Shown: in pieces, positions 95-62,179 of the stretch
How positions within the stretch are numbered: the first letter of the stretch is position 1
Layout: each line of letters begins with the position of its first letter
NCBI GenBank assembly: GCA_031256975.1
Contig: JAIRPN010000003.1
Span: 1-64,000 of the forward strand
Origin: Verrucomicrobiales bacterium
GTDB lineage: Bacteria > Verrucomicrobiota > Verrucomicrobiia > Methylacidiphilales > JAAUTS01
DNA: 64,000 nucleotides
Direction of reading: 5' to 3'
Program-made: the position numbers and the translations under genes
The notes under the pieces: generated by a model
Database searches by the model: none
What the model saw: the letters and a program-made list of their open reading frames with translations, nothing else
Told to the model about the DNA's origin: nothing

Positions 95-142
95 TCGCGC
101 TCGCGCGCTCGCGCGCTCGCGCGCTCGCGCGCTCGCGCGCTC
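95..142. repeat. 8-bp tandem repeat, unit TCGCGCGC
   Basis: After a six-base partial unit, five perfect copies of TCGCGCGC follow at 101-140. The unit is almost self-complementary, so the tract can form hairpins or slip during replication. It lies in non-coding DNA about 370 bp upstream of the first gene. The pure GC content contrasts with the flanks. Copy number may vary between strains, which is an inference. Confidence 0.9.
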
Positions 143-509: not shown

Positions 510-1223
510 ATGAACCCCAACCTCAACCGTCATCTCCCTCCCTATATGCCGCGCCAGGAAGCCTTGCTGCTGATCTGGATCGAACAATTCCTCAACGGCC
601 TCAAACCGATGCTCGGCCTGTTCCAGATCGAGCAGCAGGACTATGAGCAATATATGGAGGGTTTCGGGTCGCTCAAGAACGCCTACGACTGCCATGTCCA
701 CAGCGACGGCTTGGCGAAGGCCAACACCCGCTTCAAAGACTTGGTGTTCTATGATCGCAACCATTTGACGACAAGCGCGCCGCGCGAAGAAGGGGTAATC
801 TTCCCCGGAGTGAATACTCTCGAAGGCGGTTATGTCTGGCGACTGGCGGAACTGATCGAGGAAAAGATTTTACCCAATCCCGCCTGCTCGGAGGACATCA
901 AACGGCAGTTGCAAATCCTGCCGGTTGCCCATGCGGTGCCTTCGCCGGAACAACTGGTGGCGGAGCCGGACATCGTGTGCGACGGCTCCAAGGTCACGAT
1001 TCACACCACCATCCCCAAACCCGCCGACAGCCAGATCGTGCATGTGGACAAGCATGACGGCAAGGGCATGGTCAAGGAGCGGGAAACACCGAAGGCCAAC
1101 TGTGAATACCAGACCGAGTTGCCGGAAATAGAAACGTTGTGGACCTTCAAGGTGGCCCTGAGCATCAAGGGCCGCGAAGTCGGCACCGCTGCCTACGTCA
1201 ATGTGTTGGTCAAATGCACCTGA
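510..1223 (+). CDS. Hypothetical protein, 237 aa
   Basis: No family was recognised. The protein is soluble, with no signal peptide or membrane segment. Its first half is helical and rich in Gln, Leu and Glu. Its second half (about residues 150-237) looks beta-rich, with charged turns and a final valine-rich strand, perhaps an immunoglobulin-like fold. The start follows an AAAGGAAAA site at good spacing. Codon use resembles the neighbouring genes. It stands alone, about 200 bp before a large autotransporter, and nothing in the context points to a function. Confidence 0.7.
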   Translation: MNPNLNRHLPPYMPRQEALLLIWIEQFLNGLKPMLGLFQIEQQDYEQYMEGFGSLKNAYDCHVHSDGLAKANTRFKDLVFYDRNHLTTSAPREEGVIFPGVNTLEGGYVWRLAELIEEKILPNPACSEDIKRQLQILPVAHAVPSPEQLVAEPDIVCDGSKVTIHTTIPKPADSQIVHVDKHDGKGMVKERETPKANCEYQTELPEIETLWTFKVALSIKGREVGTAAYVNVLVKCT

Positions 1224-20226: not shown

Positions 20227-20357
20227 TGTTATTTAAGATTTAAGATGTTAGATTTAAGATTCCCAATAGTTGCGCCTCCGGCGTATTTGCATCTGATTCG
20301 CCGGAGGCGCTAACTGTGAAAATCTTAAATCTAACATCTTAAATCTTAAATAACATC
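20225..20357. repeat. Large inverted repeat: perfect 37-bp arms, palindromic core
   Basis: The arms at 20225-20261 and 20321-20357 are perfect reverse complements. They contain ATTTAAGATTTAAGATGTTA. Inside them, TGCGCCTCCGGCG and CGCCGGAGGCGC continue the stem, leaving a loop of about 15 bases. The element lies between two convergent genes, overlaps the sufT stop codon and carries the last codons of the opposite gene. It should form a very stable hairpin on either transcript, so a bidirectional terminator or a miniature mobile element are both possible. Confidence 0.95.
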
Positions 20358-22553: not shown

Positions 22554-22763
22554 TGGTGGAGAAGTTTGTCGATTCTATATAAATAGTCAAATTTATAGAA
22601 TTGACAATGGATAATTATATTAATAATGGATGAATAATAGAATTGTTAGCCTATAATTAGATTAATCATGGGTATTTTATAGAATTGTCGGCTGCTGATT
22701 CTATTAATCAGGGGTGATTGATATAATTGTTGTTCGGCGATTCCATGAATTTTACTGTGGGCC
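22554..22763. repeat. Degenerate AT-rich tandem array, 42-bp period (21-bp half units)
   Basis: The octamer TAGAATTG starts at 22596, 22638 and 22680, and TATAATTG at 22722, always exactly 42 bp apart. A further diverged unit precedes them from 22554. Each 42-bp unit has a second half with ATTAATNA-like bases at 21 bp. Units agree at roughly 70% by eye. Spacing equals four helical turns, so the conserved words lie on one DNA face. The array lies just upstream of the AraC-like gene and after the end of the TIGR03790 gene. Confidence 0.8.
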
Positions 22764-40819: not shown

Positions 40820-40832
40820 AACTCCTCCTGTT

Positions 40833-40904
40833 CAGGTAGGAGTCATCAGCTTCCCGAACCGGGAAGCGGTTTGACCTTGCGAAGGCCAGGCAGATTCCAT
40901 TGCC
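40833..40904 (-). ncRNA. Fluoride riboswitch (crcB RNA motif) controlling eno
   Basis: Read on the minus strand, the conserved parts occur in order. They are GGCAATGGAATCTGCC, a small CCTTCGCAAGG hairpin, AAACCGC, a hairpin TTCCCGGTTCGGGAA, and GCTGATGACTCCTACC. These match the crcB motif as I know it, including the GATGG, AACCGC and CTGATGACTCCTACC blocks and the GGAAT/ACTCC pseudoknot (one mismatch). Fluoride riboswitches upstream of eno are known. A 3' ACTCCT can pair alternatively with AGGAGT of the leader-ORF ribosome-binding site, giving a translational ON switch. Confidence 0.9.
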
Positions 40905-40910
40905 GCCGTT

Positions 40911-40938
40911 AACGTAACCCTGGCAGTTATTCTGTCAA
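40911..40938 (-). promoter_or_regulatory. Promoter of the riboswitch-eno transcript
   Basis: On the minus strand a perfect TTGACA (40933-40938) is followed after 16 bases by TACGTT (40911-40916), a weak -10 box. Transcription would start near 40904, exactly at the first G of the aptamer, which supports both calls. No alternative box fits as well in the 320-bp region between eno and the TetR gene. Confidence 0.6.
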
Positions 40939-56364: not shown

Positions 56365-56820
56365 ATGATTAAACGATCGCTTTGCCTGCTGGCATTTTCG
56401 ATTTTGATGGCTGCCTGCGGCGGTGGCAAATATGAACACAGTGAAATCCCGGCCACTACCGGTAATAATACTGCTCCCCAAACTACCCAGCCTGCGGCTC
56501 CGGCTGTCCAATCACCGTCCCAATCGACAATAACTCCGGCGCCATCGGGAGTGTCGTCATCCAACAGCAAACCGGTGATCTATGATTATCCCGGCAGCAC
56601 ACGGCAGATCGGTCTGGCTCCGGGGGCGAATTCTTCCGCATCGTCGTCTGCCTCCGCTGCGACAGCTTCCACTCATTCCGGCAAAACCTATACGGTGCAA
56701 AGTGGTGATTCCCTGTGGCGCATTGCCAACAGCCACGGTGTCACGGTTAGCGCTCTCAAGCAGGCAAACGGCCTGACCAGTGACACGATCAAGCCGGGAC
56801 AGGTCCTGCAGATTCCTTAA
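56365..56820 (+). CDS. LysM-domain lipoprotein, 151 aa
   Basis: A lipoprotein signal ([10 protein letters not shown], Cys18) is followed by a low-complexity Pro/Ser/Thr/Ala linker and one LysM domain at the C-terminus. The LysM domain reads [43 protein letters not shown]. It should be anchored in the outer membrane and bind peptidoglycan. It lies 23 bp before the YfhO-like gene. A close paralogue lies at 60192, starting with the same MIKR and ending with the same LysM pattern. Such proteins often act in cell-wall maintenance. Confidence 0.88.
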
Positions 56821-60070: not shown

Positions 60071-60191
60071 CTTAGAAGGGTGATAGTTTGCCAAAATTGG
60101 AAATATAAAAAAAGATTTTTATGTGAATATGGATGGGATTTTTGTGAAAATAAGTATGGTCATTTGCAAAACAGGTGTTTATTTAGAAAGC

Positions 60192-60524
60192 ATGATTAAG
60201 CGATTGGTTTGCATGGGCGCTGTTGCGGTTCTGGCCATTGGCTGCGCTGACAGCGGTAAGAAAACGGATAATCAACCGACAGCGGCAAGTGGTGACCCGA
60301 ATGCGGGCACTGTGGCGTATGGCGACCAGAATTCAACATTGCCTGCCAAGCCAGAGGCGGCTACTCCGGCAGTTTCGAATTCCGGCAAATCCTATACCGT
60401 GGTTAGCGGCGACTCCTTGTGGAAGATTGCGCGCAATAACGGCACCACCGTGGAAAAACTCAAGGCTGCCAATAACCTGACCACCGAGATGATTCATCCC
60501 GGCCAAGTGCTGGTGATTCCGTAA
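60192..60524 (+). CDS. LysM-domain lipoprotein, 110 aa
   Basis: This is a paralogue of the gene at 56365. The start at 60192 (MIKRLVCMGAVAVLAIGC, Cys18) gives a lipoprotein signal; a longer frame begins at 60123. A short linker precedes one LysM domain: YTVVSGDSLWKIARNNGTTVEKLKAANNLTTEMIHPGQVLVIP. It should be attached to the outer membrane and bind peptidoglycan. An intrinsic terminator follows 28 bp after the stop. A GTTAGCG word lies in the LysM codons at 60402. Confidence 0.88.
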   Translation: MIKRLVCMGAVAVLAIGCADSGKKTDNQPTAASGDPNAGTVAYGDQNSTLPAKPEAATPAVSNSGKSYTVVSGDSLWKIARNNGTTVEKLKAANNLTTEMIHPGQVLVIP

Positions 60525-60552
60525 GACGTTTCGAACTCATTGTTTCTTGAAG

Positions 60553-60584
60553 AGCACAACTCCTTTTGGGGCTGTGCTTTTTCT
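60553..60584 (+). terminator. Rho-independent terminator of the LysM gene
   Basis: AGCACA (60553-60558) pairs with TGTGCT (60573-60578), with inner CTCC/GGGG pairing possible, followed by TTTTTCTTT. It terminates plus-strand transcription after the second LysM lipoprotein gene. It separates that gene from the phased repeat array. Confidence 0.85.
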
Positions 60585-60632
60585 TTGTACCAGCGGGGCT
60601 TGGGACGGAAGAAGGTCGGTACATTAACCAAT

Positions 60633-60830
60633 CACGTATTGCATATGTTTCTGATATGCTAAGCATATTTTATGGATATGCACTGAATAGTTTAAATGTA
60701 TGCTGAGCATTTTGGCATTATATGCGGTGAATATAGTTAAAATATGCGTCGGATATTGAAAATATATGCCATGCATATTAATAAAATATGCATGGCATAT
60801 TGGCCAAGTATTCAGTCGATTTTAGCTTAT
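60633..60830. repeat. Phased array of TATGC-N3-GCATA palindromes, 22-bp period
   Basis: TATGC starts at 60655, 60677, 60699, 60721, 60743, 60765 and 60787, each exactly 22 bp after the last, with a degenerate TATTC at 60809 and a half unit from 60633. The second conserved word is GCATATT at offset 8, so intact units (for example 60655, 60765 and 60787) contain TATGC-N3-GCATA inverted repeats. The seven-base spacer after it is AT-rich and variable. The array lies between convergent genes (LysM and rhlE), so it is not a promoter. It could be a multi-site binding element. Confidence 0.9.
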
Positions 60831-60882: not shown

Positions 60883-62079
60883 TTAACGGCGTTTGCGACG
60901 GGAACTGCCGGTGCTCTTGCGACGACCGTCATTGGCACCACTTTCCTGCAGCAAGGTGGTGTAGGTGTAGTCGAAGTTTTCCAGTTTTACCCGCGGGATG
61001 GTCTTGTTGATGAGATATTCGATGGCGGTGATGTGTTCCTGCTCGGGCGCGGTGAAGATGGTGAGGGCGTCGCCGGTGCGATTGGCTCGTCCGGTACGGC
61101 CGATGCGATGGACGTAATCTTCGGGGTTTTCCGGCACGTCATAATTGATGACATGGCTGACTCCCTCGATGTCGAGCCCGCGTGCGGCAATGTCGGTGGC
61201 GACCAGGACTTCCACCTCGCCACTGCGAAATAGTTCCAAGGCTTTGGTGCGCTGGCCTTGGGAGCGGTCAGAGTGGATGACTTCGACCTTGTGTCCCTTG
61301 GTTTGCAGGGCGTTGCCGATCATGTCGGCACCGATCTTGGTGCGGGAAAAGATGATGACGCTTTCGTAGTTGGTGCGGTCGAGGAGGGCCATTAGCAACT
61401 CATCCTTTTGATTCATGGCCACTGGGTAAAGCACATGGCTGACGGTTGCGGCGGGATTGCTGCGCTGGCCGATGGCGATGGTTTGCGGTTCCTTCATGGC
61501 CCAACCGATGAGGTCTGCCAAGCGAGGCGGAATGGTGGCGGAAAAGAGCATGGTCTGGCGGTTAGCGTTGCAGTAACCGATGATCTTTCGCACGTCGGGC
61601 ATGAAACCCATGTCGAGCATGCGGTCGGCTTCGTCGAGGACCAACACCTCGATCTGGTTCAGTTTGACCGCACCGTTTTCGATATGGTCGATCAGGCGGC
61701 CGGGAGTGGCGATGATGATATCAGGTTTGCGGGCAAGCTCCTTGTTCTGGCCCTCGTATTTGACACCGCCATGCAGCAGGCAACTGGTCACAGAACTGAA
61801 AGCGGTAAAGTCATTACAAGCATCCTTGACCTGGGCGGCCAATTCACGGGTAGGTTCCAGGATCAGGCAGCGGGTATGGCTGTGTTTTTGCAGTTTGTGC
61901 AGAATGGGCAGTACGAAGGCGGCGGTCTTGCCGGTGCCGGTTTGTGCCGAGCCAATCAAATCCTTGCCGCTAATAATGATGGGGATGGCTTGGGCCTGGA
62001 TGGGGGTGGGGTCGATATAACGGAGCCGCTGCACCGCGTGCACGACGTCTTCTCCGAGTCCTAGATTGCTAAATGACAT
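60883..62079 (-). CDS. rhlE: DEAD-box RNA helicase, RhlE type
   Basis: The motifs appear in order: Q motif (SFSNLGLGEDVVHAVQRLRYIDPTPIQAQAIP), AQTGTGKTAAF (I), EPTRELAAQ (Ia), TPGRLIDH (Ib), VLDEADRMLDMGF (II), SATIPP (III), ARGLDIEGVSHVINYD (V) and HRIGRTGRANRTG (VI). The C-terminal tail is short and basic (RRKSTGSSRRKRR). Length is 398 aa from the ATG at 62079. RhlE-type helicases act in ribosome maturation and RNA turnover. It converges on the repeat array. Confidence 0.95.
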   Translation of the reverse strand: MSFSNLGLGEDVVHAVQRLRYIDPTPIQAQAIPIIISGKDLIGSAQTGTGKTAAFVLPILHKLQKHSHTRCLILEPTRELAAQVKDACNDFTAFSSVTSCLLHGGVKYEGQNKELARKPDIIIATPGRLIDHIENGAVKLNQIEVLVLDEADRMLDMGFMPDVRKIIGYCNANRQTMLFSATIPPRLADLIGWAMKEPQTIAIGQRSNPAATVSHVLYPVAMNQKDELLMALLDRTNYESVIIFSRTKIGADMIGNALQTKGHKVEVIHSDRSQGQRTKALELFRSGEVEVLVATDIAARGLDIEGVSHVINYDVPENPEDYVHRIGRTGRANRTGDALTIFTAPEQEHITAIEYLINKTIPRVKLENFDYTYTTLLQESGANDGRRKSTGSSRRKRR

Positions 62080-62179
62080 GTTGAACAAGGCTAGAGAAGG
62101 AGTGACAGTTGGGCGAGATATTATTTTGTCCAGTAAACAGGCCTTGTGCGGTGGCGTTTAGCATCTAGTTTATTCCTTT

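Follow-up and report, generated by a model that had tools for sequence, protein, structure and literature searches.

A helically phased palindromic array in a Verrucomicrobiales genome and its probable kinship with a class of array-gene elements

The array and its surroundings

What is a series of degenerate palindromes, held at exact 22-bp steps, doing in the gap between two converging genes? The series lies at positions 60632 to 60830 (no strand assigned) of the 64,000-nt stretch of Verrucomicrobiales contig JAIRPN010000003.1 that we analyzed, which we call the window, in a 2.76-Mb assembly of 19 contigs that is 87% complete. It comprises nine 22-bp units of the form ATATKC-NNN-GMATAT plus 7 A/T-rich bases, starting at 60632, 60654, 60676, 60698, 60720, 60742, 60764, 60786, and 60808. 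A sequence-only reading of the window had reported seven TATGC copies phased at 22 bp with degenerate flanks, and this is exactly what is found, with copies at 60655, 60677, 60699, 60721, 60743, 60765, and 60787, one degenerate unit before them (60633), and one after (60809). Identity is 0.60 at lag 22 and again at lag 44 across the array, a level never reached in 1,000 dinucleotide shuffles of it (best lag, maximum 0.44), and its lag-22 signal is the strongest within the 64-kb window. The same reading had described the units as TATGC-N3-GCATA palindromes; the unit is indeed palindromic, but only three of the nine units (60655, 60765, and 60787) carry that full form, and the consensus is really ATAT(G/T)C-NNN-G(C/A)ATAT with its A/T-rich spacer. 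The seven best units (60654 to 60800, no strand assigned) include exact copies of ATATKCNNNGMATAT at 60654, 60720, 60764, and 60786. ATAT appears at 11-bp intervals, alternating in orientation, and the GC content of the array is 31%, versus 55% for the window.

The array was correctly placed between convergent gene ends, after a terminator. To its left is a LysM-domain lipoprotein gene (60123 to 60524, plus strand; translation probably starts at 60193), followed on its 3' side by a terminator-like hairpin on the plus strand (60548 to 60582, AGCACA...TGTGCT and then a T-run), and to its right a convergent DEAD-box helicase gene (60883 to 62088, minus strand); a methyltransferase and an ABC transporter complete the gene neighborhood. 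A second LysM lipoprotein gene with a similar C-terminal domain (56365 to 56820) lies within 4 kb of the one at 60123 to 60524. Positions 60592 and 60834 hold a direct repeat of 8 bp, CAGCGGGG, which as a candidate target-site duplication was set aside as weak; it is not seen at the second of the arrays described below, on contig C2. An Rfam search gave no match at the array. Elsewhere in the window, a fluoride riboswitch (RF01734) scores above the Rfam gathering score at 40830 to 40913 on the minus strand, and two heptamer repeat tracts, of ATTTAAG (20231 to 20261) and AAATCTT (20320 to 20351), stand about 60 bp apart.

Reach of the motif and constraint on the half-sites

A genome-wide search for the motif, proposed as a check along with the original observation, returned two further arrays, so that the assembly holds three of the ATATKC type (C10:60632, the window array; C2:121342-121540; and C4:182826-183030) and nothing else above noise. 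Exact ATATKCNNNGMATAT sites number nine in the genome and all lie inside these arrays; no single exact site occurs outside them, and sites with one mismatch are about as numerous as in the control. With isolated exact sites absent, a search for an autoregulatory operator outside the arrays gave no candidate. Like the window array, the C2 array occupies a convergent gene gap.

Beyond this genome the motif is hardly met. A two-unit pattern with up to 3 mismatches was found in 0 of 97 relatives, and a 44-bp motif profile run over 384 genomes of the class gave only two weak matches, neither of them an array; weak motif-model matches in G104, G212, and contig C8 were likewise dismissed as not being arrays. 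BLAST of the array returned three chance-level matches in phages and none in 72,556 plasmid records. In two genomes of the same genus (G001 and G003) a gap of about 13 bp, without an array, separates the ends of the LysM and helicase genes, in G004 the gap is short and keeps the terminator but not the array, and in G006 the gap equivalent to the C2 site is about 20 bp and arrayless. On these comparisons the ATATKC arrays either arose in this lineage or have disappeared from others. Absence from close relatives had been named beforehand as grounds for doubting the array; at the 60.6-kb locus that absence is real, but the same architecture, with other motifs, recurs throughout the genus and the class. 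An exact-pattern scan for the motif, covering 84,980 genomes, mostly returned 11-bp direct repeats of Bacteroidales, which were recovered because the pattern has ATAT every 11 bp. These resemble our arrays in being intergenic and of helical period and in having ATAT steps, but they are direct repeats, no gene adjacent to them matches the gene family introduced below, and no common neighbor was found; we treat them as separate, since their neighbors do not match that family. Many such degenerate tandem repeats occur, several per genome, at loci L107, L112, L113, L119, L142, L145, L160, L163, and others, and some of them form long imperfect palindromes (L142).

We compared the 27 units of the three ATATKC arrays (C10, C2, and C4) column by column. 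Columns 1 to 4, 6, 10, and 12 to 15 are conserved, and in the N3 columns and the seven of the spacer identity is close to what composition predicts; core-column identity is 0.73 both within and between arrays, and variable-column identity is 0.34 within and 0.32 between them. The two half-sites vary independently, G5 occurring with A11 and T5 with C11, without compensation. Unit-order homology among the three arrays is absent in any register (p of 0.28 to 0.49), and duplication among them was rejected on that ground; same-locus arrays of sister species align at 85 to 89%. Neither of the marks of a decayed satellite, excess likeness of neighboring units and uniform column decay, is present in the window array. 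Because identity within arrays equals identity between arrays, and because conservation is limited to the half-sites and their spacing, these comparisons indicate that the window array is not simply a decayed satellite. Either selection made the three arrays converge on a common motif, or they are old copies whose positions are saturated apart from those of the half-sites; both origins imply constraint on the half-sites. The earlier suggestion that conserved spacing with degenerate sequence reflects selection for sites on one helix face is thus supported at the sequence level, with half-site columns kept and spacers near the level of composition.

A gene family with arrays upstream

The C4 array, whose motif is that of the window array, stops some 60 bp short of a gene for a 244-aa protein (C4:183080-183811) that has paralogs in the same genome. 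Among 61 copies of this family with at least 250 bp of upstream sequence, all from one bacterial class and scanned with lags of 15 to 30 left open, 57 have a phased array upstream, of period 21 (n = 50) or 22 (n = 7), a count that is inflated by orthologs, as copies in sister species are not independent, though its positives come from many families of the class. A score of at least 0.55 was reached by 55 of the 61 upstream regions versus 0.6% of 3,000 control pieces. The four copies without an array upstream are L235, L237, L239, and the copy in the window itself (510 to 1220, plus strand), a gene for a protein of about 240 aa with the helical and FN3 parts described below, whose upstream 21/22-bp signal is weak (score 0.39) and which follows an 8-bp microsatellite (CGCGCTCG, 96 to 142, plus strand). 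We found no published description of this pairing of array and gene, which is the larger finding here and, as far as the open literature shows, has so far gone undescribed.

The number of units in family-linked arrays ranges from 7 to 21 (median, 13.5). Tested against column shuffles, palindromy is significant (p < 0.05) in 45 of 56 arrays. Their motifs differ among paralogs (AGAGAAG, GACGAA, GTAGT, TTTTAC, CAGGAA, GCAGAAAG, GTGCAC, and others), and paralogs that are 90 to 92% identical nevertheless have unrelated array motifs. Coding heptads (21 bp being 7 codons) are excluded as a source for the 22-bp arrays. The full element in the genus runs from a conserved box (CCCGGC..AATTTT.CCC.CTTCATTCCCCATGCGGTT) through the array and a conserved spacer to the gene; many full elements have an 8-bp microsatellite before the box, and in several a sigma-70-like promoter (TTGACA-18-TAAnnT) lies upstream of the array, some 400 bp from the ATG. 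Elements L084 and L079 have box and spacer in common but unlike arrays, and therefore arrays have been replaced between fixed flanks; elements that closely resemble one another follow unrelated genes in G001 (C160, C88, and C94), and therefore elements disperse.

The family protein has no sequence match in Pfam, PHROG, or PDB. Its predicted structure (pLDDT 84) joins a helical N-terminal half to a C-terminal FN3 fold (Foldseek E value, 3.5e-4); a separate model of the helical half, built with 53 homologs, reaches a pLDDT of 89 and has no fold match among solved structures (best E value, 3.2), so that with an FN3 C terminus and an unmatched helical part the model offers no recognizable DNA-binding domain. 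Of the 384 genomes of the class, 44 have the family; they represent 26 genera, with copy numbers reaching seven or more per genome, and outside the class few genomes of the phylum sample carry it. A search by tblastn placed no member in plasmids or phages, and no relative was found on viral contigs. Array similarity tracks protein residues 1 to 11 (r = 0.43, Mantel p = 0.0025) and is uncorrelated with the protein body (Mantel p > 0.47). This correlation may reflect recognition by the tail or the mere physical linkage of the array to the 5' end of the gene, and our own genome supplies a counterexample in the window copy at 510 and the C15 copy, which have similar N-terminal tails but unlike arrays. 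Bodies and 5' ends of family genes recombine: in the pairs L079/L295 and L084/L087, identical N-terminal tails and like arrays accompany bodies that are only about 56% identical, and the reverse also occurs.

Not every array has its gene. A lag survey of 830 kb, about 30% of the genome, recovered 22-bp arrays at gene-linked sites (C4:46310, C4:182850, C5:2846, and C12:101410), a 21-bp array at a further such site (C15:45856), 22-bp arrays at gene-less sites (C10:60653, C2:121394, and C12:80371), and 42-bp arrays at window position 22595 and at C19:71593, other lags being sporadic. The second gene-less array of the window (22563 to 22760, no strand assigned) has a period of 42 (2 × 21) and half-sites ATAGAAT/ATTCTAT, with no family gene nearby. 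The one at C12:80371 (L287, 371 to 545), between genes, has a period of 22 and the motif GGTCGGG..CCCC, and that at C19:71593 (L293, 11593 to 11840) has a period of 42 and the motif GTCGTCGGCTGACGAC; the motifs of these three match no gene-linked array in the assembly. We call the window array solo because no family gene lies nearby, a six-frame profile search around 60.6 kb giving no match, and because it has its motif in common with the gene-linked C4 array. Neither the element box nor the 8-bp microsatellite stands beside it, and its flanks are unlike those of the full elements of its own genome. In G001 (contig C94) an array of the AGAGAAG motif retains the element box and lacks the gene, and in G002 (contig C160) an array with the motif and flanking box of a linked array is followed by a gene remnant in which a large internal deletion joins a 5' fragment to the 3' end. 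Sequence comparison of these two thus demonstrates gene loss as a route to solo arrays in the genus, and by analogy the window array could be a deletion derivative of a full element. A family gene of G003 (contig C108; L338, 2424 to 2546) is cut off at about 40 codons, and the AGAGAAG array ahead of it is intact. With its tandem 22-bp period and palindromic unit, the window array very probably belongs to the 21/22-bp array-gene class.

Among described repeats, BrickBuilt of Porphyromonas gingivalis combines a MITE with a minisatellite of 23-nt units and has leader and tail inverted repeats (PMC4596501). The likeness lies in tandem short units without spacers, in dispersed, multicopy intergenic placement, and in leader and tail blocks (PMC4596501), but our units are 21 or 22 bp and palindromic, their motif varies between copies, and one protein family is linked to them; in the window array, of unit 22 bp, conservation is of the motif only. 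REPs are high-copy palindromes of 20 to 40 bp tagged by GTAG/CGTC (PMC3733652), and REP/BIME sequences are, like ours, palindromic and intergenic, sometimes between convergent genes, but the ATATKC arrays are low in copy (three), lack the tag, and keep a strict two-turn period.

What the arrays may do

The window array might be neutral, a functionless decayed minisatellite whose period is kept by slippage and whose motif survives by chance. Tandem duplication does operate in the class, since some gene-linked arrays are near-identical minisatellites with lag identity up to 0.98 (L095 and L311), and arrays turn over between flanks that stay; the concentration of identity in the half-site columns of the window and sister arrays, equal within and between arrays, argues against neutrality, as do the period of 21 or 22 in all 57 positives across the scanned lags of 15 to 30 and the palindromy found across unrelated motifs, and we consider neutrality unlikely. 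It also seems improbable that the array works as RNA, transcribed as a leader that forms a chain of small hairpins, either a structured 5' untranslated region or the repeat-RNA antitoxin of a type III toxin-antitoxin system. In such systems (toxIN) a repeat array specific to the gene copy directly precedes the gene, an architecture that a repeat array before a family gene resembles; the promoter ahead of the array in several full elements means that it would be transcribed there, and folding of the window array is, on either strand, stronger than that of mononucleotide shuffles (z = −5.8 and −5.7). Palindromy alone accounts for that folding, however, and the window array sits between convergent genes after a terminator; the gene here encodes a predicted helical and FN3 protein with no ToxN-like match, the unit is 21 or 22 bp, and the pair statistics speak against RNA hairpins, palindrome mismatches on the gene strand (G·T, 246; A·C, 360) following composition. 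Action as DNA is favored over action as RNA, on these sequence statistics, because there is no wobble excess on either strand, because the period is held to 21 or 22, a helical quantity of DNA, and because the half-sites vary independently rather than in compensation.

A DNA site need not concern the gene family at all. The array could organize the chromosome or buffer supercoiling at gene ends, as gyrase- or NAP-binding BIME clusters do, and the convergent gaps of the C10 and C2 arrays, the position of C12:80371 between genes, and a two-turn phasing suited to a wrapped or filamentous complex agree with such a role; we nonetheless give it a small chance, as there are only three arrays of the motif and none in relatives, several unrelated motifs occur in one genome, and the linkage of the array class is overwhelmingly with a single gene family. 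The sequence-only reading had likened the array to an iteron, a centromere-like array, or a nucleoid-protein array; in spirit, as phased protein sites, that was right, but it left the identity unspecific. Iterons and ParR-parC centromeres of the pSK41 type are series of protein sites that recur with helical spacing along a single face of the DNA, an arrangement suited to a cooperative filament, and phased iterated sites whose orientation alternates every 11 bp recall both them and parC-like arrays. A specific iteron or centromere system finds no support, with no Rep, ParB, or ParR-type gene beside the window array and no Rep, ParA, or ParB-like gene at any of the three loci, and chromosomal capture of a plasmid-type iteron or of a partition centromere is highly improbable: plasmid records contain nothing similar, the three contexts are chromosomal with conserved housekeeping neighbors, several unrelated motifs are found per genome, and the neighbor protein, where there is one, is of the helical and FN3 type.

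We think it probable, from its sequence features, that the array is a DNA-binding array, and we lean, with modest confidence, toward the fuller reading in which the window array is a solo member of the array-gene class that would act as a tandem array of binding sites for a dimeric protein. A dimer would occupy each dyad, and, with sites two turns apart facing one side of the helix, some nine dimers could assemble cooperatively as a filament. Where a full element has its array between promoter and gene, the array might act as a tandem operator or roadblock, and solo arrays might recruit the same protein in trans. The candidate binder would be either the family protein, in which the variable N-terminal tail alone follows the array motif, or some other factor. 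That the family protein binds the array is doubtful in our judgment, and slow coevolution of a binder is hard to reconcile with paralogs that are 90 to 92% identical and have unrelated motifs.

The signal that was picked out by eye in one intergenic gap shows how such a gap can hold the solo form of a widespread element. Near-universal pairing with arrays, in two dozen genera or more, gives a strong clue that the unannotated protein family has a function tied to them, and near-identical paralogs with differing motifs at fixed period and symmetry offer a natural test of array sequence against helical phase and protein tail in recognition. We tentatively raise the possibility of a new type of element, a dispersed array-gene module of one phylum in which each paralog would have its own palindromic motif at exactly two turns, array and N-terminal tail would be inherited as a recognition cassette while the body is exchanged among copies, and solo arrays would act in trans. 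If this is true, the module would be a multispecificity DNA-addressing system without known counterpart.
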